From: a virus
IMG/VR virus record: IMGVR_UViG_3300020222_000063
Span: 1-41,650 of that record
Strand: one strand, 5' to 3'
DNA length: 41,650 nt
In this document: positions 5,523 to 38,797 of the stretch, piece by piece
Layout of the letters: every line of letters starts with the position of its first letter
Position numbering within the stretch: the stretch's first letter is position 1
The notes under the pieces: generated by a model
What the model was told of the DNA's origin: nothing
The model's input: only the letters and a program-made list of their open reading frames with translations
Database searches by the model: none
Program-made: the position numbers and the translations under genes

Positions 5523-5753
5523 TCAAAAATTTTTTATGGGGGGTGGAGGTAGGTGCTTCCATGGTTTATTTATATCCATTAGTAATCCTGCTAATTCATA
5601 ATGGGCATATACATACCGGTTTTGTTCTTTAAAGAATTTTATATATATTCTTTTTTTATTGTCTCTGGATAGTTTTACTTCTGTTATATATCCTATCTCT
5701 CCTTCTGAATCTATTAGGATATCTCCTGGTGTAAATGTTGTTGGTTTATTCAT
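5523..5753 (-). CDS. GD-family microprotein, last gene of the array
   Basis: 76 aa. The family opening is TPGDILID (residues 8-15), followed by a GYITEV strand and an IYIKFF strand. It ends HLPPPPIKNF, a proline run replacing the usual H-Y-P-V-V-K tail. It is the most distal gene of the leftward operon; no clear terminator follows. Confidence 0.75.
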   Translation of the reverse strand: MNKPTTFTPGDILIDSEGEIGYITEVKLSRDNKKRIYIKFFKEQNRYVYAHYELAGLLMDINKPWKHLPPPPIKNF

Positions 5754-5762
5754 ATATGTTTA

Positions 5763-6002
5763 TTATTTCTTTATTGAATATCTCTCTAATATCTTTCTAT
5801 CTATAAACTTATCTAACTCCTCTTCATCATAACTTTCCTTTATATATTCTCCTACTGGAAGGTTTACCCATGATTCTAATAGGTACATGGTTGAACCATC
5901 CCAGTCATACCATATCTTTATTACTGTTGATAGTTCTTCTTTATCATACTTCCATACCATTACATCTCCGATATTGTATTTGGTATGTTCTTTAAACTTC
6001 AT
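5763..6002 (-). CDS. GD-family microprotein
   Basis: 79 aa with a longer N-terminus (MKFKEHT) before KYNIGDVMVW. Central strands STVIKIWYDW and MYLLESW, then a charged helix-like tail (DEEELDKFIDRKILERY). The start overlaps the stop of the gene upstream. Confidence 0.78.
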   Translation of the reverse strand: MKFKEHTKYNIGDVMVWKYDKEELSTVIKIWYDWDGSTMYLLESWVNLPVGEYIKESYDEEELDKFIDRKILERYSIKK

Positions 6003-6240
6003 TGTTTATCTTTTTGTCTATCATATACTCTTTTATATAATGTTTTTTATTCTCCATTCCCGCAAATATAATTGTGTATATTCCACCTGTAATATTATCA
6101 GTTGATGGTGTTGCTTTTATTATTATTCCTATTTTGCCCATATAGTATTCTTTATATAAGAACTTCTCTATATCCAACTGTTCATCTGGTTCTGGATAGC
6201 TATCTATTGTTTTTATTATATCTCCCGGTTTATACTTCAT
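5992..6240 (-). CDS. GD-family microprotein
   Basis: 82 aa, MKYKPGDIIK start. An inserted segment (SYPEPDEQLDIEKF) precedes the conserved KIGIIIKA strand, followed by YTIIFAG. The ATG overlaps the upstream stop by 4 nt. Confidence 0.78.
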   Translation of the reverse strand: MKYKPGDIIKTIDSYPEPDEQLDIEKFLYKEYYMGKIGIIIKATPSTDNITGGIYTIIFAGMENKKHYIKEYMIDKKINNEV

Positions 6241-6473
6241 TCTATGTTCTCTTTTATCTTGTATTCTATCTCTTCTTCATATACAAGATGTTTTTTTCCT
6301 TCTATGCCCGCAACTAATACTTGGTATATAACAACAGGATATTTTGTTGCTTTGGCTATATCATATACCGGATCAGTTGTCCCCAGTATTATTCCCACTT
6401 TGTCTCGGAATATCACATAGTCATTATAATTCATTTTCTTTATCTTGACTATGTCTCCCACTTGATATTTCAT
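6237..6473 (-). CDS. GD-family microprotein
   Basis: 78 aa, MKYQVGDIVKIKK start, DKVGIILG core strand and VLVAGIEGKKH; most like the proteins at 5992 and 6424. Its start lies inside the 3-prime end of the gene upstream (50-nt overlap). Confidence 0.78.
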   Translation of the reverse strand: MKYQVGDIVKIKKMNYNDYVIFRDKVGIILGTTDPVYDIAKATKYPVVIYQVLVAGIEGKKHLVYEEEIEYKIKENIE

Positions 6474-6648
6474 ATATTCTTTCTATTATTAATCTTTCTA
6501 ATACCCATATTGGTTCATTTGGTTTTCCACATATAAGAATTCTATAATCAACTTCTTCATTCCACATTCTGCTTTTTATTATTATTCCTATCTTCTCCTC
6601 ATATTGTGTATTGATTGTCTTTACAATATCACCTATCTGATATTTCAT
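6424..6648 (-). CDS. GD-family microprotein with run-on C-terminus
   Basis: 74 aa, MKYQIGDIVKTIN start, EKIGIIIKS core, YRILICGKP strand. The last dozen residues (SSGRHSQDKENEL) read out of frame through the ribosome-binding site and start of the next gene, which suggests loss of an earlier stop codon. Confidence 0.75.
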   Translation of the reverse strand: MKYQIGDIVKTINTQYEEKIGIIIKSRMWNEEVDYRILICGKPNEPIWVLERLIIERIYEISSGRHSQDKENEL

Positions 6649-6680
6649 TTTCTTTCGCCATCATTATTCTTCTATCTAAA

Positions 6681-6746
6681 TCACTTTCTATATCCCAATA
6701 CATAATCAATATAAACAATATCACCAATATTATATTTGTGTTTCAT
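6681..6746 (-). pseudogene. Truncated GD-family gene (21 aa)
   Basis: Opens MKHKYNIGDIVYIDYVLGYR exactly like a family member, coupled by an ATGA overlap to the upstream gene, but meets a TGA after 21 codons. It has the motif strand and nothing else, so it is most likely a decayed copy; a functional peptide cannot be excluded. Confidence 0.6.
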
Positions 6747-6964
6747 TTTATCACCGGATAATGGATATAATCATTTAATTGACTTCTGAGATAGAAAAGT
6801 TCACCACATTCAATAGCAAACTTACCAAACCATTTTATAATAATTTCTTCTGGTTCTTCAAATTCACTATTATATTCAACTCTTACAACATAACCTATTG
6901 CTGGATAATGTGTTGTTGGTTCTTTTTTAGATATAAATAAATCACCAACACTTATTTTTTTCAT
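6743..6964 (-). CDS. GD-family microprotein
   Basis: 73 aa, MKKISVGDLFISK start, AIGYVVRVEY core, EEIIIKWFG strand and the canonical end DYIHYPVIK. Four-nt overlap at both ends. Confidence 0.8.
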   Translation of the reverse strand: MKKISVGDLFISKKEPTTHYPAIGYVVRVEYNSEFEEPEEIIIKWFGKFAIECGELFYLRSQLNDYIHYPVIK

Positions 6965-7176
6965 TCTTTTACCGGATAATGAATAAATTGTTTTGTTATA
7001 ACATAATGCTCAATAGCATCGGCATCAAGATGTTGTATTTTTGTCTTGCCTTCTGGATAATATATTATAACTTTGTAATATTCTGTTGATAGTGTTTTAT
7101 TCTCTTCTTCCAGAATGAGAATTGATATTGTTTCATGTTTTTCTACAACAAACAAATCACCAATATTATATTTCAT
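6961..7176 (-). CDS. GD-family microprotein
   Basis: 71 aa, MKYNIGDLFVVEK start, SILILEEE core, YYKVIIYYPEGK strand, end FIHYPVKE. Overlaps both neighbours by 4 nt. Confidence 0.82.
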   Translation of the reverse strand: MKYNIGDLFVVEKHETISILILEEENKTLSTEYYKVIIYYPEGKTKIQHLDADAIEHYVITKQFIHYPVKE

Positions 7177-7382
7177 TTCTTCACCGGTATATGCTCTACA
7201 TTACCGTTTAGTATATCATCTAATTCTTCTTCTGTCCAATATGTATCACGATATCCTACTTGTTCCGGATATGTGAGCCAATAATATTTGATACCATTTT
7301 CCTCATCTATCTTATAAAGATGGGATCGTAGTTCTGTATCAAAATTACGGTCAATAAATATATCACCAATATTATATTTCAT
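7173..7382 (-). CDS. GD-family microprotein
   Basis: 69 aa, MKYNIGDIFIDRN start, LYKIDEENGIKYYWLTY core, and a helix-like EEELDDILNGN before the end HIPVKK. Confidence 0.82.
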   Translation of the reverse strand: MKYNIGDIFIDRNFDTELRSHLYKIDEENGIKYYWLTYPEQVGYRDTYWTEEELDDILNGNVEHIPVKK

Positions 7383-7594
7383 ATTGCTTTCAATTCTTTC
7401 TGGAAAATACGATATGGTAAATCTGGTTGTCCTTGAATAATAACTTCATATTCAGGTTCGTTGATATGGTATGTGTGATTTAGTTGTAATGTTATATAAC
7501 ATAACCTTCCACGGATTGGTTCATACACATAAGGACTGTTTAAGATCCGCACGATATCTCCAACAGAAAATTTGTGTTTTCTTCGTCTCGTCAT
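7379..7594 (-). CDS. GD-family microprotein with basic N-terminus
   Basis: 71 aa from MTRRRKHKFSVGDIVRI. This start is preferred to one five codons upstream because it forms a TAATG overlap with the upstream stop. It carries EYEVIIQGQPD like the protein at 6424 and lacks the H-Y-P-V tail. Confidence 0.75.
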   Translation of the reverse strand: MTRRRKHKFSVGDIVRILNSPYVYEPIRGRLCYITLQLNHTYHINEPEYEVIIQGQPDLPYRIFQKELKAI

Positions 7595-7818
7595 TATTTC
7601 ACCGGACAATGGATCGCATTATTTCTCTTTACCCAAGCGTCTATTACATCTGACTTATAATAATCTAAATATTGCGATGGACGATTGGACCACATTATAC
7701 CGACCAATTGGATATCGGGCAATATATCTTTTTGAACTTCCATAACTGTTCCAGTTTGCCAGTCCTCTTTATTGAGAAAACAAGTTTCAACAATCAAATC
7801 ACCAACGCTATATTTCAC
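7594..7818 (-). CDS. GD-family microprotein
   Basis: 74 aa, MKYSVGDLIVETC start, GTVMEVQ core, LVGIMWSNRP strand, YLDYYKSDVIDAWVKR helix-like region, end AIHCPVK. Confidence 0.8.
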   Translation of the reverse strand: MKYSVGDLIVETCFLNKEDWQTGTVMEVQKDILPDIQLVGIMWSNRPSQYLDYYKSDVIDAWVKRNNAIHCPVK

Positions 7819-8045
7819 GGTTTCACCTTTACCAGTGTATAAATCCCTTCTTCAATGAGTTCAGTAATTTTTTCTTCTAAAACCCATGTTGATTTTCCAA
7901 TTGGTTTTCCATTAAGAAAAATTATTTTATAAAAAGCACCATTTTCACCTTCATTTAATAGTTCGCTTGGACCATAACTATAACTTGAAACATATAAGAG
8001 CGTATCTCCACCAGATAGAAAAAGATCACCAATGTTATATTTCAT
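7815..8045 (-). CDS. GD-family microprotein
   Basis: 76 aa, MKYNIGDLFLSGG start; YKIIFLNGKPIGKSTWVLEE matches the truncated protein at 8857 (KFLNGKQEGRTLI). It is the first gene after the endonuclease and overlaps it by 4 nt. Confidence 0.8.
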   Translation of the reverse strand: MKYNIGDLFLSGGDTLLYVSSYSYGPSELLNEGENGAFYKIIFLNGKPIGKSTWVLEEKITELIEEGIYTLVKVKP

Positions 8046-8827
8046 TTTACAACTGATGTTTGAACTTCGCTATGTTTTTTGCGTTTTTTTGCTTCACTCA
8101 ATTTCTTTTTATGTTCTTCGCTAAGTTTTTTACCAATATTTGCTTTCCTCAACTTCTGTTTTGTTTCTTCGCTCATATTCTTATTTACTTCACTCAATTT
8201 CTTTTTATGTTCTTCGCTAAGTTTTTTACCAATATTTGCTTGACTTATTTTCTTTTTTGTTTCTTGACTGAGTTTTCTGCCAGTCAACGCTTCACTTATT
8301 TTCTTTCTTGCTTCTTTGCTGGACATTCTGTCTTTTGCCGCTTCACTTATTTTTTTTCTTGTCTCTTCGCTAATATTTCTCTTTGCTTCACTTATTTTTC
8401 TTTTTGATTGTTCGGTATGTTTTCTGCCTGTCAAAGCGACACTTCTTTTCTTTCTTGTTTCTTCACTTATGTTTCTGCTTGCTTCGCTCATTTTCTTTCT
8501 TGTTTCTTCGCTGTGTTTTACACCAAGAGGAGAACCGGCAACTTTACATATGTTATAGCCTCTATCGTCTTCATAAGACTTATAATAATCTAAATAAACT
8601 TGCTCGTATGCCAATAGGTGTTCTGGGTTTGATACTTCTTCTATTATATCAAATGTGAAACTTTGTTCGCCATATTTATTCCAGGCTTTTTGTAAGTGTT
8701 CGGAATGATGTTTTCCTTCTTTTAGATAATGCTTATGTTGGGACCATCTTTTATCAATATTGACTGCCGAACCAATATAAACCTTGTTGTTTTTTATATT
8801 TTTTATTAAGTAAATGCCACTTTTCAT
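8042..8827 (-). CDS. GIY-YIG endonuclease with NUMOD3 repeats
   Basis: 261 aa. The GIY-YIG nuclease domain is at the N-terminus: GIYLIKN (residues 4-10), VYIGSA with the catalytic-type tyrosine, and a downstream KWSQH/R-x-x-H-type region, to about residue 95. The rest is roughly ten copies of an S-E-E-T-R-K-K-x-S-E-A unit with G-R-K or G-K-K spacers, the NUMOD3 DNA-binding motif of phage and intron homing endonucleases. It makes a nick or cut at a specific DNA site (family knowledge). A GGGAGAA sequence precedes the ATG. It sits in the microprotein array and probably is a freestanding mobile gene. Confidence 0.88.
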   Translation of the reverse strand: MKSGIYLIKNIKNNKVYIGSAVNIDKRWSQHKHYLKEGKHHSEHLQKAWNKYGEQSFTFDIIEEVSNPEHLLAYEQVYLDYYKSYEDDRGYNICKVAGSPLGVKHSEETRKKMSEASRNISEETRKKRSVALTGRKHTEQSKRKISEAKRNISEETRKKISEAAKDRMSSKEARKKISEALTGRKLSQETKKKISQANIGKKLSEEHKKKLSEVNKNMSEETKQKLRKANIGKKLSEEHKKKLSEAKKRKKHSEVQTSVVK

Positions 8828-8856
8828 ATAATTCTCCCTTATATGAGTAAGTAGTT

Positions 8857-9039
8857 TTAAATTAATGTTCTGCCTTCTTGTTTACCATTGAGAAACTTGA
8901 TGGTAATATATTTAACTGTTTTACCATCTGGATTGAATTCATCTGTATATTGAATATCAAGAACATAAATACAAGTTCCATCTTTGGTATACATAAGATC
9001 GCCAAGGGATAAATTTATTTTACTGGATAATACTTCCAT
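8857..9039 (-). CDS. GD-family microprotein, C-terminally truncated next to the endonuclease
   Basis: 60 aa, MEVLSSKINLSLGDLMY start; the frame ends at EGRTLI, where the relative at 7815 continues for about 25 more residues. The cut lies 29 nt before the endonuclease start, as expected if that gene inserted here. The ATG used lies 25 nt inside the upstream gene. Confidence 0.65.
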   Translation of the reverse strand: MEVLSSKINLSLGDLMYTKDGTCIYVLDIQYTDEFNPDGKTVKYITIKFLNGKQEGRTLI

Positions 9040-9209
9040 AATTTTTCTTCTATGAAATGATCAACTTGTTTTCTTTTCCAAGTTAATTCAACTGGCGGAT
9101 TTTGGTTGAGATATAGGAGAAACTTTACATTATAGACATTTACAGCAACAGCAATCATTTTTGCTTCGCTGGTTGTTTCTATAAATAAATCTCCTATACT
9201 ATATTTCAT
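9015..9209 (-). CDS. GD-family microprotein
   Basis: 64 aa, MKYSIGDLFIETT start, KMIAVAVNVYNVKFLLYL core, VDHFIEEKLWKYYPVK end. One of the shortest intact members. Confidence 0.8.
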   Translation of the reverse strand: MKYSIGDLFIETTSEAKMIAVAVNVYNVKFLLYLNQNPPVELTWKRKQVDHFIEEKLWKYYPVK

Positions 9210-9415
9210 TCTATATACTTGCCCACAATATCCTTTTCAACGAAATAATAGAACTCATTTACAAAACCACAAACAATCACTTTATATTCGTTTGTATCAG
9301 TTATCTTCCAGCGTTCCATGATAAGTACTGGCTTATCCTGAAATCGTTCAAGGTGGAGCATTTTACGAATTTTTACAACATCTCCAATAGCATATGCGTA
9401 ATCAGTTGTGTTCAT
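9206..9415 (-). CDS. GD-family microprotein
   Basis: 69 aa, MNTTDYAYAIGDVVKIRK start, KPVLIMERWKI core, YKVIVCGFVNEFYYFVEKD; tail lacks H-Y-P-V. Closest in style to 6237 and 6424. Confidence 0.78.
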   Translation of the reverse strand: MNTTDYAYAIGDVVKIRKMLHLERFQDKPVLIMERWKITDTNEYKVIVCGFVNEFYYFVEKDIVGKYIE

Positions 9416-9645
9416 TTTTTCACCGGATAATACTTCCAGTTTCTGTGTGATATTGTATCTGGATTGAACATATGTTCTATGTTATCTGGATACATTATTC
9501 GTTTTCTCATTCGTATGCCTTTTGTTGGATTGAGAAGAATAAGAATATATTTTTTAGTATTACGTTCTTCGTCATACTGAACATCAGCCACATAATACAC
9601 TTCACTATTAAGCAATACAAATAAATCACCTAAATTAATCTTCAT
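9412..9645 (-). CDS. GD-family microprotein
   Basis: 77 aa, MKINLGDLFVLLN start, YYVADVQYDEERNTKKYILILLN strands, and an extended loop before the end NWKYYPVKK. Confidence 0.8.
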   Translation of the reverse strand: MKINLGDLFVLLNSEVYYVADVQYDEERNTKKYILILLNPTKGIRMRKRIMYPDNIEHMFNPDTISHRNWKYYPVKK

Positions 9646-9851
9646 TTCAATATGGCTTTAAAGTGTTCTAAAAATTCTGGTCTTTCTTTAAACTGTTTAA
9701 AAAGTTCATTTTTACTCATAAAAACACTTCTTACTTTCATAGTATGGGTATCATAATATTCAAGTATTAGTTTGGTTCCTTTCTTTCCAACAATAGTAAA
9801 AGTTATATTATCTCTTTTTTGAAGAATAAGATCACCAACATTAAAATTCAT
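9642..9851 (-). CDS. GD-family microprotein
   Basis: 69 aa, MNFNVGDLILQKR start, TFTIVGKKGTKLILEYYD strands, and an amphipathic tail (ELFKQFKERPEFLEHF) without the usual ending. Confidence 0.78.
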   Translation of the reverse strand: MNFNVGDLILQKRDNITFTIVGKKGTKLILEYYDTHTMKVRSVFMSKNELFKQFKERPEFLEHFKAILK

Positions 9852-10092
9852 TTTTCACCTTTGGAACAGGATAATATTGATTTAGATTATGTTTGCGTTT
9901 ACCTTCTACTATGGAAAGCCATAGATTTATTGTTCTTTCATCCGATTCATCTATTCTTGTTTCACCGGTTTTCCATTGCCAGAATATCTTATAGTTTAAC
10001 TTCTTGTTATTATCAATATCTATTATAATACCGATCTTTTCTACGAAAGGTATTACGATCAGATCACCTATATTATACTTGGTTTTAATCAT
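9841..10092 (-). CDS. GD-family microprotein
   Basis: 83 aa, MIKTKYNIGDLIVIPF start, EKIGIIIDIDNNKKLNYKIF core with a following W, QYYPV near the end and a short extra tail (PKVKNEF). Confidence 0.8.
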   Translation of the reverse strand: MIKTKYNIGDLIVIPFVEKIGIIIDIDNNKKLNYKIFWQWKTGETRIDESDERTINLWLSIVEGKRKHNLNQYYPVPKVKNEF

Positions 10093-10313
10093 TTGACAAC
10101 CGGAAAGTATTTGTATTTTCCTGCTTTTATATCTTCAGTCAACTTAACATCAATAATAGCATATGGTAGCATGTCTGGAACTTCTTGTTTCTTGCTCACC
10201 ATTAGATAGATCGCCTTGTCTCCGTACATGTATGTAGTAATATAATGTATAACAGCGATTGTGCCCTGATCACTAACTAACAGATCACCTATTTTGAACC
10301 TAAACTTTCCCAT
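10089..10313 (-). CDS. GD-family microprotein
   Basis: 74 aa, MGKFRFKIGDLLVSDQGT start, IAVIHYITTYM core, IYLMVSKK strand, end YKYFPVVK. Confidence 0.8.
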   Translation of the reverse strand: MGKFRFKIGDLLVSDQGTIAVIHYITTYMYGDKAIYLMVSKKQEVPDMLPYAIIDVKLTEDIKAGKYKYFPVVK

Positions 10314-10491
10314 TCTTTGTCAGTCTGCAAATCTCATAATGATCCCACAGCTTCTTCTCCCAGTTATTCATTTTATCATTTTGCCAGTTAATTTTATAGA
10401 GTGTGCAGTATTCTTTTTCCTTGACTTCAGTAATAATGCCAAGTGTATTGCTAACCGGACAAGCAACGAGATCACCAATTTCATAATTCAT
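10300..10491 (-). CDS. GD-family microprotein
   Basis: 63 aa, MNYEIGDLVACPVSNTLGII start, YKINWQNDK strand; ends ICRLTKNGKV by overlapping the next gene's start. Its stretch from GDLVACPV to LGIITEV resembles 9841. Confidence 0.8.
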   Translation of the reverse strand: MNYEIGDLVACPVSNTLGIITEVKEKEYCTLYKINWQNDKMNNWEKKLWDHYEICRLTKNGKV

Positions 10492-10715
10492 TATTTCACC
10501 ACGGGATAGTGTTGGAGAATATCGTCAGCGTAAATAATTCTATCGTTTAGTATATGGACCAACTTTTCAAATCTAACAAAATAGGATTTTGCATCCAATG
10601 TATGAACACCTAATCCTACAATAAGCCCTACACTATTTTCATGTTTTGGCATAAAACGCCAAAGTTCTGGTTTTAATACAACTAAATCGCCAACTTGATA
10701 TTTTGGTTTATTCAT
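10491..10715 (-). CDS. GD-family microprotein
   Basis: 74 aa, MNKPKYQVGDLVVLKPE start, SVGLIVGLGVHTLD core, YFVRFEKL strand, end ILQHYPVVK. TAATG overlap with the next gene. Confidence 0.82.
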   Translation of the reverse strand: MNKPKYQVGDLVVLKPELWRFMPKHENSVGLIVGLGVHTLDAKSYFVRFEKLVHILNDRIIYADDILQHYPVVK

Positions 10716-10936: not shown

Positions 10937-10947
10937 ATTAGTAACTA

Positions 10948-11175
10948 TTATTTACAAACTGGGAAAACATAAGTTTTTTCATATGATTTGAATGTTTCTA
11001 TTCTTTCGTTACTTTCAAGAGAATTTATATCTTTGAACCAACGCATTTTAAAAGGATTATCTTTTGCAGGTTCGTATGCTTCAATATATCCAATATCGCT
11101 ATCAGATTGTCCCTCTTTAAAAACAATGAGATCACCGACTTGATAATGGCTGTAATCTTTTGTTGGGATTTTCAT
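10948..11175 (-). CDS. GD-family microprotein
   Basis: 75 aa, MKIPTKDYSHYQVGDLIVFK start, SDIGYIEAYEPA core, FKMRWFKD strand, end TYVFPVCK. It is the first array gene downstream of 11178. Confidence 0.8.
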   Translation of the reverse strand: MKIPTKDYSHYQVGDLIVFKEGQSDSDIGYIEAYEPAKDNPFKMRWFKDINSLESNERIETFKSYEKTYVFPVCK

Positions 11176-12243: not shown

Positions 12244-12723
12244 TTATTTTACAACTGGAAGGAGTTTCCAACGGAATTTATGAAATGTGGTATTCGAATA
12301 GTATTTGTTGAAAAGATAAAAAAGTTCCTTGGTGAAGCTATATTTTTCTACCTGTCCATTATCAGACCACATGATTTTAATATAATGATTAGTTTGTTTA
12401 TCAAACCAAGCACAACGCCTTACACTCTTTCCAATAACAATGCCAACACGCTTTTTATTGCTATAACGCGTTTCTACACCTTCCTTGCGACCAATAACCA
12501 TATCACCAATATGGAAATCACCAGCAGTAATAAACTTTGGATCACACAAACCGGGATAGTAAGTGTATTCCAATCGTTCAACAAGATCGTCAAGTTCATC
12601 TACTGAACGACTGATAAGTGTTCCGGCACGAGTTTGTAGATAATAAATCTTATCCTTGTAATCAAGAACAATATAAGCCTTGTTCTTCTTGATAAATGTA
12701 TCACCAAACTTATACTTGCTCAT
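12244..12723 (-). CDS. Two-domain GD-family protein (tandem fusion)
   Basis: 159 aa, twice the usual size. Domain 1 opens MSKYKFGDTFIKK and ends TYYPG near residue 57. Domain 2 opens DFHIGDMVIGRK near residue 70, has VGIVIGKS and YIKIMWSDNGQ strands, and ends WKLLPVVK. Each half carries its own GD opening and P-V type ending, so this is an internal duplication or fusion of two array genes. Confidence 0.8.
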   Translation of the reverse strand: MSKYKFGDTFIKKNKAYIVLDYKDKIYYLQTRAGTLISRSVDELDDLVERLEYTYYPGLCDPKFITAGDFHIGDMVIGRKEGVETRYSNKKRVGIVIGKSVRRCAWFDKQTNHYIKIMWSDNGQVEKYSFTKELFYLFNKYYSNTTFHKFRWKLLPVVK

Positions 12724-12732: not shown

Positions 12733-12945
12733 TTATTTCACCACCGGGTAATGAATCCAAGACTTCCAAACAAGATTACTGGTAATCGTGATAGGATCAT
12801 AATTATTGATCCTATTTGATCTTACATTTTCTACTCCATCAGACCATTCAACATAAATATTGTTTTGTATTTGTGTAATTTTTATAATTGTTCCTAAAAT
12901 ATTGCTTTTTGTATCGCGGAACAAATCACCAACTTGATAACTCAT
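12733..12945 (-). CDS. GD-family microprotein
   Basis: 70 aa from MSYQVGDLFRDTK; an upstream in-frame ATG is ignored because this start gives the 4-nt overlap used across the array. ILGTIIKITQIQN core, IYVEWSDG strand, end WIHYPVVK. Confidence 0.8.
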   Translation of the reverse strand: MSYQVGDLFRDTKSNILGTIIKITQIQNNIYVEWSDGVENVRSNRINNYDPITITSNLVWKSWIHYPVVK

Positions 12946-13178
12946 TTCACCACCGGAATATGTTTCCATCCCCAATATTCAACTTTATCTTTCAATTGTT
13001 TTGTACTCATTTGTTTTTTATGTGCATATTTTGCACCATCAAAATACTCAATACAATGTTGGTATTGTTCGCCTTTACTAAATTGAAAAATTTTTGTAAT
13101 ATAACAAACTGAATCATCCGCCCTTATAAACATATCGCCAACAGAGAAGTATTTTGTTGATTTAAATTCTTGGATCAT
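12942..13178 (-). CDS. GD-family microprotein
   Basis: 78 aa, starting MIQEFKSTKYFSVGDMFIRAD, with VCYITKIFQFSKGEQYQHCI and end GWKHIPVVK. Seven nt separate it from the stop of the gene at 13185. Confidence 0.8.
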   Translation of the reverse strand: MIQEFKSTKYFSVGDMFIRADDSVCYITKIFQFSKGEQYQHCIEYFDGAKYAHKKQMSTKQLKDKVEYWGWKHIPVVK

Positions 13179-13184: not shown

Positions 13185-13895
13185 TTACTGAATAATGTTA
13201 AGGTGTTTCTTTGCGACAGCCGATGCCTTATTCTTTGCAGCACCGTGAGCAGTAAAGCCAATCACATACTTACGATCAGAGCGAGAACAAAGAGCACCAT
13301 TAACTCCACCGCAGTTAGAGCAGTTAGTCTTTTCATTATATTCAGCAGGACAACGAACAATCATATTGCCTGCTGGTGTCTTATCGTTCTTCCAATCGTT
13401 TGGCGTATCGTGGGGCATGATCGTGACGACCGGAGCAATATTCAGCGTCAAGTATTCGTCAGCTTGCGCTGCGTTATTACTTGAAAGGTTGATCGTGAAA
13501 CCATTATCGTTAGCATACATGATGCCGATATTGTTTTCAAGAATAGTTGGATCCTTGTGGGTATAAGCAAACCCACGCTTTCCCCTATTAGCATCAACCA
13601 ACTTCTTCAACATTTCAAGATTAATATTTTCCTTGCTTCCCGGAAGATCGCCAGCAACACCATATCGCCAAAGCTGATTAGGCTTGATATTCTTAATCTG
13701 CTTCAAGAGAGCAGCAAAAGAAATACCGTTATCGTTCACACGATCCCAATGAATACGAACCAATCCACCACGAGCATAACAACCACCATTATACAGGTGG
13801 CAGGAAGGGGGACAAGTGTTTCGGGAAACAATAACAGCAGGAATGTTTCCAATCTTTTCATTCTTGGAACGCGCAGTAAAACCAAACTTAATCAT
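13185..13895 (-). CDS. Cysteine-cluster phage protein of unknown function
   Basis: 236 aa from MIKFGFTARS (GGAG 6 nt upstream). The N-terminal block reads NTCPPSCHLYNGGCYA; near the C-terminus there is NCSNCGG and GALCSRSD followed by YVIGFTAHGAAK. Similar paired Cys clusters occur in a family of uncharacterised phage proteins that might bind zinc or an Fe-S cluster. No CxxxCxxC radical-SAM signature is present. Its promoter starts the 12.7-13.9 kb operon. Confidence 0.7.
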   Translation of the reverse strand: MIKFGFTARSKNEKIGNIPAVIVSRNTCPPSCHLYNGGCYARGGLVRIHWDRVNDNGISFAALLKQIKNIKPNQLWRYGVAGDLPGSKENINLEMLKKLVDANRGKRGFAYTHKDPTILENNIGIMYANDNGFTINLSSNNAAQADEYLTLNIAPVVTIMPHDTPNDWKNDKTPAGNMIVRCPAEYNEKTNCSNCGGVNGALCSRSDRKYVIGFTAHGAAKNKASAVAKKHLNIIQ

Positions 13896-13950
13896 AACAA
13901 ACTCCAATTTTGGATTGTTGATTGGTTGTTTATTTACCAGTTTGTGTTCT

Positions 13951-14026: not shown

Positions 14027-14233
14027 TTAAGTTTTTACTGGAAAGTATTTCCAACTTCCGTTTTTTAGATAATTATTGGTCATACAATACGCATCATATG
14101 GACCACGAACATATTTGCCTTCTTTATCGGGAAATTCAAGATATAATGTGCCGGGTCGTATTTTGACTAAATATAGCATGATAGTAGACATGCTATCTGT
14201 ATATACAAACAAATCACCAACTTGATATTTCAT
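14027..14233 (-). CDS. GD-family microprotein
   Basis: 68 aa, MKYQVGDLFVYTD start, IMLYLVKIRPGTLYLEF strands, end WKYFPVKT. Last gene before the promoter at 13974. Confidence 0.82.
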   Translation of the reverse strand: MKYQVGDLFVYTDSMSTIMLYLVKIRPGTLYLEFPDKEGKYVRGPYDAYCMTNNYLKNGSWKYFPVKT

Positions 14234-14475
14234 TGTAACACCTGATAATGAACATAACCATCTCTTTCAACCATAATTTTAAGAGTTAGATATTCCTTTT
14301 GTGAATTAAAAGTTTTACTCAAACCATCTGAATGAGTATAATGATGTTGAAGATCATAAGCAAAACATTTTAGATGTATTTTATATTCATACCCAATTAA
14401 TGTTATAATTGCTTGTCCTCCGTTTGATTTATAAACAAGAATATCACCGATACTGAATTTAATTGATTGCGCCAT
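14230..14475 (-). CDS. GD-family microprotein
   Basis: 81 aa, MAQSIKFSIGDILVYKS start, AIITLIGYEYKIHLKCF strands, tail EYLTLKIMVERDGYVHYQVL. TAATG overlap with the upstream membrane peptide. Confidence 0.8.
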   Translation of the reverse strand: MAQSIKFSIGDILVYKSNGGQAIITLIGYEYKIHLKCFAYDLQHHYTHSDGLSKTFNSQKEYLTLKIMVERDGYVHYQVLQ

Positions 14476-14821: not shown

Positions 14822-15646
14822 CTATGGAATAGAATTAAAAATATGAGCGATAACGTCTGCCGTCCAACCATTTCCAATCATCTTATAACGATGACAGTCG
14901 GCAACGTTGCTGGTATAGTTATCTGGAATAGTTTGGAGTCGTTCACATTCAATTGGAGTTAGACGACGCTTGAAACCAAGATCAACATAAATACCATCAG
15001 TTGGTTGTTTGTAATAACCAGCAATAAGTGTTCCACACTTGTCTTGGGTTCCATCATAAAAGAAACCACGACCACGCTCTGTATTCATAACCCTATCAAT
15101 CTTGGCTTGTGAAAGGGCATATTTCCGATCAGCATTTAGTTCAAGAATATCTTTCATCTTGATATTTTTATCGTCTGGCTGATTGATGTTTGGAATATTA
15201 GTCCAATACAAACGAGGACGATTCTGTGCTGATACAAGTTTACTGTTGATTTCAATAGGTTGAACACCCAATTCATCAGAAATAATATCTCGCCATTCCC
15301 GCTTCATCTTTACATTTTCGAGAAGAAAATAGGTTGGTTTAATTTCTTTCAAGATACGGGCATATTCCCAAAACAAACCACTCTTACCATTAAATCCTGT
15401 TCCACTTCCAGCAGTTGAAAATGACTGGCAAGGACTTCCACCAATAAGCAAATCAATATTGGGAAGATTAGAGGAATTAATATCTTTTACATCTCCAAGG
15501 TGAATGGTCTTTGGATAGTTATGTTTAGCAACTTTGATTGCGTGTGAATCAATTTCTGCTGCGTAATAATCGGTGTATTCAATACCAGCACGATTAAGAG
15601 CAACTTGACCGCAACTCATACCATCAAAAAGACTTAAAACTTTCAT
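14822..15646 (-). CDS. DNA C5-cytosine methyltransferase
   Basis: 274 aa, a compact C5-MTase. Motif I SLFDGMSCGQ (5-14), motif IV GGSPCQSFS with catalytic C73, motif VI ENV near 111, motif VIII QNRPRLYW near 150, and motif X GNGWTADVI near 259. It transfers a methyl group from SAM to C5 of cytosine in a specific site; the target domain between motifs VIII and IX is short. No restriction enzyme lies nearby, so it is probably an orphan phage enzyme used for host-restriction evasion or gene control (inference). Confidence 0.93.
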   Translation of the reverse strand: MKVLSLFDGMSCGQVALNRAGIEYTDYYAAEIDSHAIKVAKHNYPKTIHLGDVKDINSSNLPNIDLLIGGSPCQSFSTAGSGTGFNGKSGLFWEYARILKEIKPTYFLLENVKMKREWRDIISDELGVQPIEINSKLVSAQNRPRLYWTNIPNINQPDDKNIKMKDILELNADRKYALSQAKIDRVMNTERGRGFFYDGTQDKCGTLIAGYYKQPTDGIYVDLGFKRRLTPIECERLQTIPDNYTSNVADCHRYKMIGNGWTADVIAHIFNSIP

Positions 15647-15647
15647 A

Positions 15648-15896
15648 TCACACCTTTGTAAATGATTTATTCAGATCACAATAACTTTCATCCCACCTTG
15701 AAGGTGTTGCGTTCTTTTGTGAAAGTAAAGTCCATCCAATATGAGTATCACCATATACATCTTCAAACTCACCATAATGGGTTACAACAAAATAATCACC
15801 TTGATCTACATCTTCTTCTAAATCTTCATTCTTTCCAGCAGTAATCCTCATATCATCTTTTGAACGGAGAATATCACCAACTCGGTATTTCATCAC
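15648..15896 (-). CDS. GD-family-like microprotein, divergent
   Basis: 82 aa, MMKYRVGDILRSKDD start, then an acidic insert (EDLEEDVDQGDYFVV) and THIGWTLLSQK. Only the opening is family-typical; the C-terminus is unrelated. One base separates it from the methyltransferase. Confidence 0.72.
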   Translation of the reverse strand: MMKYRVGDILRSKDDMRITAGKNEDLEEDVDQGDYFVVTHYGEFEDVYGDTHIGWTLLSQKNATPSRWDESYCDLNKSFTKV

Positions 15897-16102
15897 TTCA
15901 CCACAGGATAGTGTTTATAAACATTATAATCAACAAAATATTTTAAATGATATCCAGCGAATACTTCTTCTCTGCTTTCTGATGGGATATAGAAAGTGTA
16001 ATATATATCTTTATCGTCTCTATCTATATCAATAACAATAAAACTCCGGGTTCCTTCTTTGACACGGGTATCAATAAACATATCACCAATGTTGTATTCC
16101 AT
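15893..16102 (-). CDS. GD-family microprotein
   Basis: 69 aa, MEYNIGDMFIDTR start, SFIVIDIDRDDKDIYYTF strands, end NVYKHYPVVK. ATG overlaps the upstream stop. Confidence 0.82.
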   Translation of the reverse strand: MEYNIGDMFIDTRVKEGTRSFIVIDIDRDDKDIYYTFYIPSESREEVFAGYHLKYFVDYNVYKHYPVVK

Positions 16103-16530: not shown

Positions 16531-16749
16531 TTACTTCTTTTTTATATTCTTTGATCTTGGAAGGTACTTATAATCTTGTTTTAATATCTTGTTATTGAGT
16601 TCCCATTTGCTTATTTTTGTTTCTTTGCCTTCCCAAAGAACTTTTATATGCCTTATTAATATTCCAACAACAAGACCACTTTTTATCTCTTTTGTATCAA
16701 CTAATAAATCGCCTATATTGAATATTATTTTTTTAAATACTTGTTTCAT
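16531..16749 (-). CDS. GD-family microprotein
   Basis: 72 aa, MKQVFKKIIFNIGDLLVDTK start, GLVVGILIRHIKVLWEGKE strands, and a basic end (YLPRSKNIKKK) in place of H-Y-P-V-V-K. Last gene of the 16.5-19.5 kb operon. Confidence 0.78.
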   Translation of the reverse strand: MKQVFKKIIFNIGDLLVDTKEIKSGLVVGILIRHIKVLWEGKETKISKWELNNKILKQDYKYLPRSKNIKKK

Positions 16750-20023: not shown

Positions 20024-20245
20024 CTAACCGTCAGCGATCTTATCAAGTGTATGCGGGAAGTGTTGGCCTTCTTTTTCCAATCTTTGCCAAAGAACAACAA
20101 CATGATTATTTAGAACTTGAATCACAACACCAACATCATCCATATATGGAATATCTTTTGCTGGTGCTCTAATACCAACTTTCCTCAAATCATCATACGG
20201 CTTCAATCTTACAAGACAACCAACATGAAAATGTGTCTTCACCAT
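20024..20245 (-). CDS. Divergent GD-family/KOW-like microprotein
   Basis: 73 aa: MVKTHFHVGCLVRLKPYDDL has GC instead of GD; then DVGVVIQVLNNHVVVLWQRL, the clearest barrel-like strand pair of the family, and a His-rich end. It starts after the metallopeptidase terminator and ends 2 nt from the promoter of 19950. Confidence 0.7.
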   Translation of the reverse strand: MVKTHFHVGCLVRLKPYDDLRKVGIRAPAKDIPYMDDVGVVIQVLNNHVVVLWQRLEKEGQHFPHTLDKIADG

Positions 20246-22636: not shown

Positions 22637-22842
22637 ACAGAAATAACTTTCCACTTTCCGAACTTGATAAGTTGCTTGATTGTGGATGGATCAGCACCCC
22701 ACTCTTTATGATCTCCAACATTCCAAAGCATAATATAGTGATACAGCTTATCGTCCGGGACACGAAGAACAACACCGGTACCACCAGTATCACTTTGGAT
22801 CAAATCACCAACTTTGATATTGAGATTATTGTTTTCAGTCAT
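22633..22842 (-). CDS. GD-family microprotein
   Basis: 69 aa from MTENNNLNIKVGDLIQSDTG; GTGVVLRVPDDKLYHYIMLW core, end FGKWKVISV. It keeps the domain without the P-V-V-K tail. Confidence 0.78.
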   Translation of the reverse strand: MTENNNLNIKVGDLIQSDTGGTGVVLRVPDDKLYHYIMLWNVGDHKEWGADPSTIKQLIKFGKWKVISV

Positions 22843-22855
22843 ATTTAACCCAATA

Positions 22856-23194
22856 TTAGAAGTCAAAATCAAGAGAGCGATTCAAACGAATATTAAACGG
22901 AGTTTCCCAAGTTCCCTTTGATGTATAATCATTATCATCTTCACCAAGAACGTGATATGAATAATCATCTTGATTAAGATCTTCAAGTTCTTCAATAAAT
23001 TCATTTACTGCCTTGACTTCCGGATAATCATCATACCACTTTACATCGTGAAACTCAACAAGTTTCCAGCCATTACATTCATGAATCTTGGAACCATCAA
23101 TAAAGTTAGCAGCAACACGATCTTCCATTGTCTTGATAAGTTCAGAGAACCTTTCATCTTTGAGAGCAAGAAGAACATCACTACGATAACCCAT
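22856..23194 (-). CDS. MGYRSDV-type phage protein
   Basis: 112 aa from MGYRSDVLLALKDERFSELI, with GGAGATAAT upstream. The M-G-Y-R-S-D-V start is shared by many uncharacterised small proteins of phages and bacteria. The C-terminal half is acidic (EELEDLNQDDYSYHVLGEDD). Function unknown. Confidence 0.7.
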   Translation of the reverse strand: MGYRSDVLLALKDERFSELIKTMEDRVAANFIDGSKIHECNGWKLVEFHDVKWYDDYPEVKAVNEFIEELEDLNQDDYSYHVLGEDDNDYTSKGTWETPFNIRLNRSLDFDF

Positions 23195-26279: not shown

Positions 26280-26546
26280 TTAATAAGAAGAATACCAGCG
26301 GTATGATTCATGTTCTTCTGCGCTCAAATGAGTTCTTTCATAGATAGATTTTTGTTCCAAGGAATATACAAAATTATCAACACAAAGTTCTATTGTTATT
26401 CCTTTACCTTGGATTTTGCCAGCAGCAGAAATAGGTTTGCCTTCCACGAAACTCTTATTCTCCAATACAAATTGGCCGTTAACATAATCTAATACAACTC
26501 CATCTCCGGTTGATTTGATAAAGTCTTCAATCTTTTTATGGAACAT
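26280..26546 (-). CDS. Protein of unknown function
   Basis: 88 aa, beta-rich (GVVLDYVNGQFVLENKSFVE, GKGITIELCVDNFVYSLEQK), ends YRWYSSY. Overlaps the upstream gene by 11 nt. Confidence 0.66.
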   Translation of the reverse strand: MFHKKIEDFIKSTGDGVVLDYVNGQFVLENKSFVEGKPISAAGKIQGKGITIELCVDNFVYSLEQKSIYERTHLSAEEHESYRWYSSY

Positions 26547-26796
26547 TCTTTTTTACCCTTAACTTTTTTAGTCTATTATGTTTGATAATTGATTTGCCAC
26601 TTTTTGGAACAAACCTTTGCCAATGAACATTGATAAGCCAACAACTATTACCTTTTTTTACTTCTAAAACAACACCAATATCGTCTTTTTCATATTTATA
26701 AAAACGAACAAGCTGTAATGCTTTTGCTCTCATTTGCACGAAATCACCAACTTGGAATGGTGGTATTTCTTCTGAACTTTTATTTGTCTCACTCAT
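26536..26796 (-). CDS. GD-family microprotein
   Basis: 86 aa from MSETNKSSEEIPPFQVGDFV; DIGVVLEVKKGNSCWLINVHWQRF is a full core. Basic tail (NRLKKLRVKKNVP). The start overlaps the upstream gene by 8 nt; a longer frame is possible. Confidence 0.75.
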   Translation of the reverse strand: MSETNKSSEEIPPFQVGDFVQMRAKALQLVRFYKYEKDDIGVVLEVKKGNSCWLINVHWQRFVPKSGKSIIKHNRLKKLRVKKNVP

Positions 26797-27046
26797 TAAT
26801 TTTATAGCCAATTTCCTCAAAACACTTTTCGTGATTTAGATCTCCACGATATGAACCGGGAAGTTCACACCAATCAACGATATTTCCCTTTTCATCAGCA
26901 GCAAACATATAAGTTTCTGGACCCATGAATGGAACTTGACTTACTGATGTAATAACATATTTATGACCTTCAATCCTTGGTAATACTTCCCAAAGAAACT
27001 GATGATCATTAATACACTTAATTTTATTAGCAACTTTATTCGTCAT
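26789..27046 (-). CDS. Protein of unknown function
   Basis: 85 aa: INDHQFLWEVLPRIEGHKYV, ETYMFAADEKGNIVDWCELP, then a helix. The strand order recalls small SH3-like proteins but no motif is diagnostic. Overlaps the short basic gene upstream. Confidence 0.66.
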   Translation of the reverse strand: MTNKVANKIKCINDHQFLWEVLPRIEGHKYVITSVSQVPFMGPETYMFAADEKGNIVDWCELPGSYRGDLNHEKCFEEIGYKINE

Positions 27047-28028: not shown

Positions 28029-28715
28029 TCAACGAAGAAACTTCATATGGCGTTCTTCAACCTCAATAGGCTTCATTTTACCATAGGGAAGAATTGAATA
28101 ACGCTTTCCACCAGCAGAATGAGAACGTGGAAGAATACCAGCATTATCAATAACAATAGCCGAGGTCCAAAGTCCGATAGGAGACTTATCAAGAGAAGAA
28201 GGAGCAACAGAATCACCAATCTTGAACTTTGGTGCGACCTTTGCGTTCACAACATAACCTTGGGCGTATTTATTATTCATAAACTTATTCCATTGTTCCT
28301 CGCTTGGAACAAACTTATCATCAGACAAAATGCTTTCAACAAGCTTTTGATGATATGGTGAACTGGTTGCGCGATAAACACCAGCAACAATCTTCATATT
28401 GTCGCGCATTTCATCTGTGAACTTATTAGCAAATTCAGTATGCTTTGCGACAGCAGCATCACTAAACTTATCTTCAATCCTCTTGAAAGAATTATACTGT
28501 CCCGCAGTAATACGATTGCGGACAGTAGCATATTCATTAATGCTGGTGAGAAAGTTCTTTTCCCAATCATTAAGTCCCGGCTTCGTGATGAGATCACGAA
28601 TACGCTGCACAATACCGGGATTCGTCAGTTCTGCTTCATTGACTTCGGGGGTGACTTGCTCCACTTGAACGGTATAGCGCGAAGGACGAACCGGAAAACG
28701 GCGATAATAAGACAT
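28029..28715 (-). CDS. Protein with C-terminal barrel-like region
   Basis: 228 aa. Basic N-terminus (MSYYRRFPVRPSRYTVQVEQ), helical middle (NPGIVQRIRDLITKPGLNDW), and a C-terminal segment KFKIGDSVAPSSLDKSPIGL followed by AIVIDNAGIL, which echoes the GD opening. Possibly a GD-type domain fused to a helical module. Confidence 0.68.
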   Translation of the reverse strand: MSYYRRFPVRPSRYTVQVEQVTPEVNEAELTNPGIVQRIRDLITKPGLNDWEKNFLTSINEYATVRNRITAGQYNSFKRIEDKFSDAAVAKHTEFANKFTDEMRDNMKIVAGVYRATSSPYHQKLVESILSDDKFVPSEEQWNKFMNNKYAQGYVVNAKVAPKFKIGDSVAPSSLDKSPIGLWTSAIVIDNAGILPRSHSAGGKRYSILPYGKMKPIEVEERHMKFLR

Positions 28716-29555: not shown

Positions 29556-29882
29556 CTATTTAGAACCTTTTACAACCTTTTGAACTAAAATTAATTCACT
29601 CGCATACATCCAAATTGAAGCATTGTTTCCAACGATATTCTTTCCAGTCCATAAAACTAATATTTGTGGTTTTGAAGGAAAAAAATCATCGTTTCTTGCT
29701 GGAATTAATTCTCTTAATGTTCCGATCTTTTTTCGTAAATATTCTATATCATACACATCATCAAAGCTTATTTTAACATCCATAACTAATCCACAACCAA
29801 CTTCAAAATCGTAATCTTCAACAAGACGAACAAGATCGCCTATATCAAATTCGCACAGCTGTTTGTTGATATAGTCAACCAT
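29556..29882 (-). CDS. Larger GD-family protein
   Basis: 108 aa: MVDYINKQLCEFDIGDLVRL opening, VGCGLVMDVKISFDDVYDIE, then a long insert and PQILVLWTGKNIVG strand before WMYASELILV. It has the family's order of elements with a 25-residue insertion. Confidence 0.74.
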   Translation of the reverse strand: MVDYINKQLCEFDIGDLVRLVEDYDFEVGCGLVMDVKISFDDVYDIEYLRKKIGTLRELIPARNDDFFPSKPQILVLWTGKNIVGNNASIWMYASELILVQKVVKGSK

Positions 29883-37177: not shown

Positions 37178-37194
37178 TAATCACACCTCTTAAC

Positions 37195-37908
37195 TCAAAT
37201 AATTATGTCTGCGAGTCCATATTTGACCGCTTCTTCGGCAGAAAGATAGATATTTACTTTCTTTTCAAACAATTTCTTGATAAAAGTAACACTCATTTTT
37301 GTTTCTGCTGCAAGACACTTGATATACTGTTCTTGTGTATGCTGGATTTCAGCGATTTCATTTAGCATTTCATGCTGCGGACCAGCGGTTCCTGCACTTA
37401 CTTGATGAACCATTACACGACAATGACGACCAATTTTACGCTTTCCTTTGGTTCCACTTGCAAGGAGAAGTGTTCCAGCACTCATAACTTGACCAAGACC
37501 AAGAGTTTCAATGTCACAATCCTTGCGAACCATTCGCATTGTATCATAGATACCAAACATATCACTTGCACTTCCACCCGGTGTAGAAATTACAAAATTG
37601 ATAGGCTGTGATACTTCATCAAATTTTACATCAATACCAGCATCCATATCCTCGTCTGCAATAGCTTTCTCAAGCTTCTTTTTCTGTACTGCTGTAAGTG
37701 GACGTGGTACGCTTTTCATTCGTGTATCATGGAGGTGGAGAAGGCTATATACAACAAGTTCTGCCTTCTCTGTATCAAGCTGACCATACAATCCAATCTT
37801 ACGAGAACCTTTTTGTTCTGGTTCTGAAAGTTGTTTGATTGTATTCATGAAATCATCTTCCGATAGCACATTATCTTTTGATTTCTTTTCTGTTGGCTTT
37901 TTACGCAT
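37195..37908 (-). CDS. clpP: ClpP-like serine protease, catalytic Asp replaced
   Basis: 237 aa from MRKKPTEKKSKDNV (AAGGAAAT upstream; an upstream TTG frame is less likely). ClpP fold: SQPINFVISTPGGSASD (oxyanion region), nucleophile in GQVMSAG (Ser143), and VMVHQ (His168). The position aligning with the catalytic Asp of bacterial ClpP is Asn219 (KKVNIYLSAEEA), as far as a by-eye alignment can tell. A 70-residue N-terminal extension is Lys/Glu-rich. Possible roles are prohead maturation or general proteolysis; no partner Clp ATPase is in the window. Confidence 0.88.
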   Translation of the reverse strand: MRKKPTEKKSKDNVLSEDDFMNTIKQLSEPEQKGSRKIGLYGQLDTEKAELVVYSLLHLHDTRMKSVPRPLTAVQKKKLEKAIADEDMDAGIDVKFDEVSQPINFVISTPGGSASDMFGIYDTMRMVRKDCDIETLGLGQVMSAGTLLLASGTKGKRKIGRHCRVMVHQVSAGTAGPQHEMLNEIAEIQHTQEQYIKCLAAETKMSVTFIKKLFEKKVNIYLSAEEAVKYGLADIII

Positions 37909-37925
37909 ATATTTCCTTTTGTTAA

Positions 37926-38108
37926 TCAAACTTCAATATCGTCTTCATCATCATCAGCAAAATTGTTGTAGGCAACTGTCAGATCGCTTAGTAATTTAGA
38001 ATGACGATCATCTAAATGTGGTTTTTCTTCTAGCCACTCAATAAATTCAGAAAGAGTTCTGGCAACTCCATTCCATTGAGCTAAGTTTCCAGCCGTAATC
38101 TTTTTCAT
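37926..38108 (-). CDS. Small acidic protein of unknown function
   Basis: 60 aa: TLSEFIEWLEEKPHLDDRHS helix and acidic end DDDEDDIEV. Sits 17 nt before the ClpP-like gene and is probably cotranscribed. Confidence 0.64.
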   Translation of the reverse strand: MKKITAGNLAQWNGVARTLSEFIEWLEEKPHLDDRHSKLLSDLTVAYNNFADDDEDDIEV

Positions 38109-38117
38109 TTTCTCCTC

Positions 38118-38339
38118 TTAGTTTTTAAGTTTACTGTAATCTTCTCTTGGTAGGAAAGCAGCTTTACTTGCTTTGTGTGTTAGGTAATTAATAGTTGTTA
38201 CAAATGGTATGTAATAACCTTTACCTTCAATTATTTCAAGATACTCAACAAAGTCGGAACATAAACTATATTCAAGTAGTTCAAAAAATTCATCTTCCGA
38301 CATTTTGACGCCTTCTTTACCTTCCCACCACCACATCAT
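38118..38339 (-). CDS. Small protein of unknown function
   Basis: 73 aa, starting MMWWWEGKEGVKMSEDEFFE; an internal Met at residue 13 is an alternative start. Helical, acidic N-terminal half and a basic C-terminus (SKAAFLPREDYSKLKN). Confidence 0.6.
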   Translation of the reverse strand: MMWWWEGKEGVKMSEDEFFELLEYSLCSDFVEYLEIIEGKGYYIPFVTTINYLTHKASKAAFLPREDYSKLKN

Positions 38340-38358
38340 ATTAGCATAGTTTCCTCAT

Positions 38359-38571
38359 TTAATCAAGTGCTCGTTCTATAACTTCTAAATCTATTGGTGA
38401 TTCTTCTGACACACAAGTTAATTGCCAACAAACAGTTATAGAATTTTCACCCCATCTGTCTGCCCTAACATCTAATACAACTCCCAATCCATGTGGAGTT
38501 TTTTCATTCCAATTTGGTTTTACTAAATCTCCTACACAAAATAATTCATTTCTAAACTTTTTGGATTGCAT
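38359..38571 (-). CDS. GD-family microprotein
   Basis: 70 aa: MQSKKFRNELFCVGDLVKPN opening, GLGVVLDVRADRW core, SITVCWQLT strand. One of two family genes far from the main array (with 38552), and it overlaps that gene by 20 nt. Confidence 0.76.
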   Translation of the reverse strand: MQSKKFRNELFCVGDLVKPNWNEKTPHGLGVVLDVRADRWGENSITVCWQLTCVSEESPIDLEVIERALD

Positions 38572-38797
38572 TTGTTACTACCATCTCCAATGTTTTATCT
38601 GTCCTCTGGGTTTTTAGGGTTACAAAGGGATAACCATGTTGATAATATATATTAGTAATTAGGTATGCATATTCAATTGCATTTCCTTCTCCATCAGTTA
38701 ACTTGACTAAATCTCCTTTATTGAGATTGTTTTTTCTATCAATCCTCAAATTGAACTGCGAAAATTTTTCCGTCTGAACCTTTGTGTTTAAATTCAT
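38552..38797 (-). CDS. GD-family microprotein, divergent
   Basis: 81 aa: a 25-residue N-terminal extension, then NNLNKGDLVKLTDGEGNAIE, YAYLITNIYYQHGYPFVTLK. The start lies 59 nt inside the upstream gene, so a shorter version may be the real one. Confidence 0.62.
   Translation of the reverse strand: MNLNTKVQTEKFSQFNLRIDRKNNLNKGDLVKLTDGEGNAIEYAYLITNIYYQHGYPFVTLKTQRTDKTLEMVVTNAIQKV

Follow-up and report, generated by a model that had tools for sequence, protein, structure and literature searches.

A divergent family of small predicted SH3/Tudor-like barrel proteins encoded in interlocked gene arrays of uncultured phages

Tandem arrays of more than 30 similar genes occur in the jumbo phages G (Bacillus) and 121Q (Escherichia) and have been attributed to tandem duplication (Hua 2017, PMC5646251), and Bacillus phage G encodes about 35 copies of a zinc ribbon (Iyer 2021, PMC7824862). 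The host-takeover module of phage SPO1 is a 26-gene cluster acting on host processes (PMC6873191). Here we analyze a 41.65-kb linear DNA record from IMG/VR (IMGVR_UViG_3300020222_000063, positions 1 to 41,650; hereafter the window, or W in comparisons), in which about 35 genes encode one family of small proteins, for which a single SH3/Tudor-like barrel is predicted. Like the arrays of phages G and 121Q, these are about 30 or more homologous tandem genes in a large phage (29 in the dense array of the window, 35 in a related contig, G007). However, the genes of G and 121Q are described as very similar, whereas the window members are mostly 15–35% identical and interlocked by overlaps. Phage G gives no match to the family, and 121Q only one at chance level (E 0.023). 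The SPO1 module likewise forms a gene cluster but consists of various proteins, whereas the window array repeats one fold. A preliminary description of this DNA was right about the strong divergence between copies; its remark that no system of this size had been described is incorrect as worded, given the arrays of G and 121Q (PMC5646251, PMC7824862).

The short opening motif of the family, [VILF]G[DC][LIVMF], matches 35 times in minus-strand reading frames and twice in plus-strand frames, against a mean of 4.2 and a maximum of 9 in shuffled frames (200 shuffles). The minus-strand matches at 33324 and 40911 are chance. A profile of the motif genes named in the preliminary description finds 37 window genes, all on the minus strand. 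No plus-strand frame scores above the inclusion threshold of the family profile, and no reversed decoy from related contigs scores below E = 0.14 with the iterated profile. Because a profile built from the motif genes is a circular test, each domain unit was rescored by a profile lacking itself and its BLAST neighbours (jackknife). In this analysis 34 of 38 domain units reach E < 0.01 and 24 reach E < 1e-4, and all but one (37/38) outscore 300 shuffles of themselves. The shuffles, decoys and jackknife together lead us to reject a chance motif. Weak jackknife scores are confined to 28029–28715 (E = 1.5), 38552–38797 (E = 0.034), 20024–20245 (E = 0.038) and 9206–9415 (E = 0.011). The first was rejected as a member, carrying only a C-terminal KFKIGD, and the second is doubtful; the third scores 1.5e-8 in its orthologue from the related contig G003, despite the 0.038 of the window copy. 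The preliminary observation is thus confirmed as one homologous family, in which about 35 window genes, rather than about 37, are secure members on these profile scores. Members are 60–108 amino acids long, with the exception of 12244 (159 amino acids), and range in net charge from -7 to +13 and in pI from 4.6 to 10.3.

AlphaFold2 predicts a five-strand barrel for member 12733 (model 1; 52 aligned members; pLDDT 77.7, pTM 0.63) and again for the subfamily without the PVVK tail (model 2; 14-sequence alignment; pLDDT 90.8, pTM 0.76). In model 2 the strands span residues 12–17, 20–35, 42–52, 55–63 and 67–71 in SH3 strand order, with a short helical turn (HHH) between strands 4 and 5. The best solved Foldseek match of model 1 is the PcrA/UvrD Tudor domain, accompanied by the KOW domains of eS4 and NusG, with HspQ at rank 9. 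Model 2 matches the UHRF1 tandem Tudor, the MRG15 and MSL3 chromo-barrels and HspQ, with TM (query) values of 0.63–0.75, E-values of 0.007–0.1 and a probability of 1.00; HspQ stands at rank 5 (TM 0.63) and POLDIP2 at rank 37. The E-values are weak (best 0.007), as expected for 70-residue proteins, and the matches are consistent. Sub-threshold profile matches to the PDB are mostly SH3-like, and mostly KOW (eS4, eL21, uL24 and NusG; E 0.02–0.8). The two subfamily profiles align at 97.6% probability, although some sequences are common to both subfamily alignments, so that neither this figure nor the two models are fully independent. Unrelated structures, which the preliminary description named as the outcome that would refute it, did not appear: both models show a five-strand barrel. 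The SH3/KOW/Tudor-type barrel proposed in the preliminary description is therefore upheld by two models from different subfamily alignments and by their Tudor, chromo-barrel, KOW and HspQ matches, and the members are predicted with good confidence to be single barrels of this class.

Each of these structural relatives differs from the window family. HspQ is a specificity factor for Lon. Like the window proteins, HspQ/YccV is a single small SH3-like barrel, and it matches both models, but the family lacks a sequence match to it at curated level. The Tudor domain of PcrA/UvrD is the C-terminal part of a helicase, whereas the window barrels are stand-alone and multigene, and Tudor is not among the sequence matches. 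KOW domains (NusG, eS4, eL21, uL24) belong to the same barrel class and account for the sub-threshold profile matches, but the window members have no significant match to a KOW model. Finally, phrog_1945 (2.7e-6, L018:3212–3397) and phrog_1690 (6e-4, 12733), both without known function, are weak profile matches, although most family members have none.

The dense array comprises 29 minus-strand genes at 5523–16749, and about six further members, also on the minus strand, lie scattered among chaperone, protease and tRNA genes out to 38.6 kb. A single operon from 5.5 to 38.8 kb, as first described, is not what the layout shows. The array is interrupted by a GIY-YIG endonuclease gene, a DUF7227 gene, a cytosine methyltransferase gene and other small conserved genes. 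Within the array, adjacent family genes form 28 pairs, of which about 20 overlap or abut, most commonly by an overlap of exactly 4 nucleotides (nt). The features are as follows.

5523..5753, minus strand: last member of the array (TPGDIL); jackknife E 4.6e-8
5763..6002, minus strand: member; jackknife E 1e-6
5992..6240, minus strand: member, subfamily 2 (YKPGDII); jackknife E 0.002, alignment A3
6237..6473, minus strand: member, subfamily 2; jackknife, alignment A3
6424..6648, minus strand: member, subfamily 2; jackknife, alignment A3
6743..6964, minus strand: member (HYPVIK tail); jackknife
6961..7176, minus strand: member; jackknife
7173..7382, minus strand: member; jackknife
7379..7609, minus strand: member, subfamily 2, ATG start probably at 7594; jackknife
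7594..7818, minus strand: member; jackknife
7815..8045, minus strand: member; jackknife
8042..8827, minus strand: GIY-YIG/NUMOD3 homing endonuclease inside the array; Pfam PF01541 4.6e-12, PF07460 1.3e-19
8857..9039, minus strand: short member; jackknife E 0.002
9015..9209, minus strand: member; jackknife
9206..9415, minus strand: member, subfamily 2; jackknife E 0.011, alignment A3
9412..9645, minus strand: member; jackknife
9642..9851, minus strand: member; jackknife
9841..10092, minus strand: member; jackknife
10089..10313, minus strand: member; jackknife
10300..10491, minus strand: member; jackknife
10491..10715, minus strand: member (HYPVVK); jackknife
10948..11175, minus strand: member; jackknife
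12244..12723, minus strand: two-domain member (predicted tandem barrels), 55% identical orthologue in G007; jackknife
12733..12975, minus strand: member, AlphaFold2-modelled from the ATG at 12945; jackknife
12942..13178, minus strand: member, example of a dual-function junction; jackknife
13185..13907, minus strand: DUF7227 gene inside the array, anchor to G007 (90% identical); DUF7227 match 1.9e-77
14027..14233, minus strand: member; jackknife
14230..14475, minus strand: member; jackknife
14822..15646, minus strand: DNA cytosine methyltransferase-like gene within the array; recognized by sequence motifs, with hundreds of homologues in viruses
15648..15896, minus strand: member; jackknife E 0.002
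15893..16102, minus strand: member; jackknife
16531..16749, minus strand: first member of the dense array; jackknife
20024..20245, minus strand: dispersed member; G003 orthologue scores 1.5e-8
22403..22654, minus strand: dispersed member; jackknife, G003 orthologue
22633..22872, minus strand: dispersed member; jackknife, G003 orthologue
26536..26820, minus strand: dispersed member; jackknife, G003 orthologue
28029..28715, minus strand: unsupported as a member (C-terminal KFKIGD only); jackknife E 1.5
29556..29882, minus strand: dispersed member, 108 amino acids; jackknife E 0.008, G003 orthologue
38359..38571, minus strand: dispersed member; independent A4 profile match 1.3e-9
38552..38797, minus strand: doubtful member (NKGDLV); jackknife E 0.034

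At 99.94% identity, the window forms part of a longer contig of 82.6 kb (IMGVR_UViG_3300020196_000016, or G006, positions 10640–52289), which carries 41–42 members. An assembly artefact was rejected on two grounds: the array recurs in this second, longer contig, possibly from the same sample, and it has a counterpart in G007 (IMGVR_UViG_3300023174_000379, 36.4 kb), where about 35 members form a syntenic array. Between the window phage and G007, the products of six array genes that do not belong to the family are 67–90% identical. Among the array genes, 15 of 29 have a reciprocal best match in G007, and the matched pairs are about 34–65% identical. The DUF7227 protein (13185–13907) is the most conserved gene product of this otherwise fast-changing array, at 90% between W and G007. 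The GIY-YIG/NUMOD3 endonuclease gene lies at 8042–8827 in the window and at 28834–29805 and 34333–34998 in G007, and because these array places differ, the endonuclease appears to move within the region.

More distant relatives were found through a VWA protein of the phage. In contigs L031–L062, proteins of the form MKVGDLV...LEVISESR are encoded in chains, with as many as about 30 at one locus; they align with the window family at a profile–profile probability of 95.9% (E 5e-9). The A4 profile, built from these wider-group proteins alone, finds window gene 38359 at 1.3e-9. Judged by these profile comparisons, the chain proteins are more distant homologues of the window family, and the array is a lineage trait with homologous arrays across a group of uncultured phages. 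Cultured relatives were sought by tblastn of members against 50,697 phage records, with no convincing match. Profile searches of ten large-phage records detected no array in Va1, an uncultured phage of 735 kb, an Immutovirus, G, AR9, a cyanophage, a Vibrio jumbo phage, PA-SR01 or two Asteriusviruses; the 735-kb record gave three weak profile matches.

The genes are chained in two ways. In the window lineage, the PVVK tail is often encoded as CCG GTG GTG AAA, running into TGA or TAATG. The valine codons of terminal PVVK are GTG in 26 of 44 cases, compared with 6% of valine codons in the large genes of the phage (p 1e-16), and CCG is also enriched in these tails. GTG is used in 35/67 codons where the next start lies -5 to +8 nt from the stop and in 5/33 where the next gene is further off (p 4e-4). 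Because GGTGGTGA resembles GGAGGTGA, the complement of the 16S rRNA tail, the PVVK-coding stretch is most likely the ribosome-binding site of the next gene. At 12942..13178, for example, the 3' end CCGGTGGTGAAATGA (PVVK-stop) carries an apparent Shine-Dalgarno sequence and the ATG of the next gene. Since the PVVK residues also form strand 5 (residues 63–66, model 1) and are kept in genes without a close successor, protein and nucleotide constraints both seem to act on the tail. The HYPVVK tail noted in the preliminary description is thus conserved in the protein, but it is partly a nucleotide signal, as the GTG bias tied to the next start indicates. In the wider group, an overlap of exactly 14 nt is found at 194 of 284 junctions and one of 4 nt at 52. 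The junction AGTGAAAGTCGGTGAT encodes SESR-stop in one frame and MKVGD in the next, placing the stop inside the following MKVGDL start, which makes the conserved SESR tail a side effect of how the next gene begins. Cassette shuffling through DNA-identical gene ends was considered for W and rejected, as the shared residues do not share codons much beyond background: codon sharing among paralogues is 0.605 against 0.563 expected for the N-terminal motif and 0.496 against 0.535 for the C-terminal motif. Gene ends are therefore not kept alike by recombination, and the apparent ribosome-binding site accounts for the PVVK codon bias.

When G006 is compared with G007, the median non-synonymous rate (dN) of the family is 0.46, compared with 0.24 for other small genes (p 0.001). 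The ratio to the synonymous rate (dS) is below 1 in every measurable orthologue pair, with a family median of 0.32, although synonymous sites are near saturation. Non-synonymous differences (pN) between orthologues are 0–0.4 across KYxVGD, with G and D at 0, and about 0.4–0.5 in the loops. Positive selection was looked for and not found: all measurable pairs have dN/dS below 1, at a dS near saturation, at which episodic selection may still have occurred. The diversifying selection proposed at first is not borne out; the family changes at about double the rate of other small genes, but under purifying selection. In G007, one tandem duplicate (24508/24702) is 75.6% identical in nucleotides, and adjacent copies are more alike than chance. 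These comparisons describe birth-and-death evolution with maintained function, in which array copies are gained, lost and duplicated and the barrel core is under purifying selection. Separately, members in G001 and G003 carry a loop with Pro/Arg-rich tandem repeats (RPRLRPRPR...) of varying length (L020:18093–18347, L021:7096–7398 and L025:6410–6691), a possible case of repeat-driven loop variation.

For the role of the family we lean, tentatively, towards co-translated small binding modules, each with its own partner, that would serve host takeover or counter-defence. Each protein would be a small soluble binding module in which the variable loops, carried on the barrel as a scaffold, would determine which partner a copy binds. 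Most of the genes sit in one leftward array with overlaps, where a gene's 3' end often holds the start of the next gene and apparently its ribosome-binding site. We count the conserved framework and variable loops between orthologues in favour of this reading; the span of net charge, from -7 to +13, fits different partners, and a homing endonuclease and a methyltransferase inside the array would be in keeping with accessory regions. Several results weigh against it. Searches of Pfam, PHROGs, NCBIfam and PADLOC gave nothing strong and no match of known function or known anti-defence activity; the anti-phage defence families of PADLOC returned only HerA models for one member, a weak single match (E about 0.01). 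The ligands of SH3-like barrels include proteins, nucleic acids and small molecules, and therefore the fold does not fix the ligand. The dN/dS ratios below 1 give no positive sign of an arms race, and the resemblance of adjacent copies is only suggestive in W (p 0.06).

An alternative that we consider unlikely is that the members are KOW/Tudor-like factors binding host RNA polymerase, the ribosome or RNA, with copies acting on different complexes to reprogramme expression. The mostly KOW sub-threshold PDB matches and the leading model 1 matches to the PcrA/UvrD Tudor and the eS4 and NusG KOW domains favour it, and the PcrA/UvrD Tudor is a known RNA polymerase-binding domain (PMC5397179). However, no KOW match is significant (PF00467 at its curated cut-off finds none of 52 members, the nearest being one at E 0.047), a pI span of 4.6–10.3 is ill-suited to a common nucleic-acid role, and it is hard to see why one factor would come in 35 versions. 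Distinctly unlikely is a by-product of gene proliferation, in which easily duplicated barrels accumulate in a permissive accessory region and most copies have little individual function. Tandem duplication in G007, the many copies without orthologues and the tandem multiplication of genes in phages G and 121Q (PMC5646251) speak for it, whereas open frames, conserved cores, dN/dS below 1 in all measurable pairs, coupled junctions and the persistence of the family in divergent phages indicate that most copies are in use.

Improbable, too, are HspQ/YccV-like protease adaptors that would hand host proteins over to an AAA+ protease of the host or to the phage ClpP. HspQ is among the best solved matches of both models, ClpP, GroEL and Hsp20 are encoded in the same window, POLDIP2, which appears among the model 2 matches, has been linked to ClpXP (PMC7647994), and SPO1 Gp53 exemplifies such adaptors made by phages (PMC6873191). 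Yet the HspQ model finds none of 52 members at its curated cut-off and only one at all (E 0.055), eukaryotic Tudor and chromo-barrels also match, and no Clp ATPase was recognized by eye in the 82-kb contig. Virion or ejected internal proteins in many variants are very improbable: the small size of the proteins and their very many gene copies are all that speaks for this reading, the array lies among accessory and nucleic-acid genes, and nothing positive was found.

The gene content surrounding the family includes GroEL, ClpP, Hsp20, a MoxR ATPase, a DUF2201 VWA protein and tRNAs, together with a DnaE-type polymerase, a replicative helicase and ribonucleotide reductase; apart from the DUF2201 protein and the tRNAs, these were named by reading the sequences. 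Because of this gene content, the record is assigned to a large tailed phage, of which it is a fragment, and the family is phage-encoded as the preliminary description held. The phage GroEL is only about 40–45% identical to GroELs in phage records and shares about 80% nucleotide identity with those of the nearer relatives G001, G002 and G003. The DUF2201 metallopeptidase-VWA protein (20315–21661) lies near the MoxR-like ATPase (24128–25189) and is present throughout the wider phage group; in Bacillus phage AR9, an AAA ATPase directly adjoins the DUF2201 protein. A host search through the VWA protein found no relative of it in species genomes. The protein at 29895–31169 has a MopE-type metal-binding motif and a lipoprotein-like signal sequence, which is unusual for a phage and a possible host clue. 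CCHC zinc-knuckle-like motifs (CxxCxxxGHNxxxC) occur in proteins at 25454–26164 and 38966–39517 and, in the wider group, at L056:1558–2373 and L056:6108–6941.

A GC-rich island (57% compared with about 30–38%) adjoins the 3' end of the array at window positions 1–4700 (G006 10640–15340). It contains eight copies of a 71-nt dyad repeat (centre CCGAGCCGGTTCGG) spaced 85–970 bp apart and paralogous plus-strand genes at 2564–2962 and 3816–4214, and no Pfam family above cut-off was found in it. The island is conserved in G007 (about 17.2–22.8 kb) and L159.

Literature searches, which cover open-licence papers only, found no paper on the barrel family. What appears new is the family itself, how widely it occurs among uncultured phages, how far its members have diverged and the two ways in which its genes interlock. 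Most small genes of phages lack a known role; here dozens per genome are placed in one family with a confidently predicted fold. With current libraries, most members would be annotated as hypothetical proteins with no relation to one another (no Pfam or NCBIfam match at curated level, weak PHROG matches). The family offers a testable class, a natural library of binding scaffolds amenable to bulk cloning and to screening for host targets, and a model for how phages grow multigene families. A broader proposal, which we hold as possible but doubtful, is that these uncultured phages use, group-wide, a single small barrel fold to build a repertoire of binding proteins that can be enlarged and is directed against many host or defence proteins. 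Carried in interlocked chains of genes whose conserved ends double as a neighbour's start, stop or ribosome-binding site, copies could be added or swapped yet stay co-expressed, and the array would be a viral counterpart of effector and receptor repertoires.

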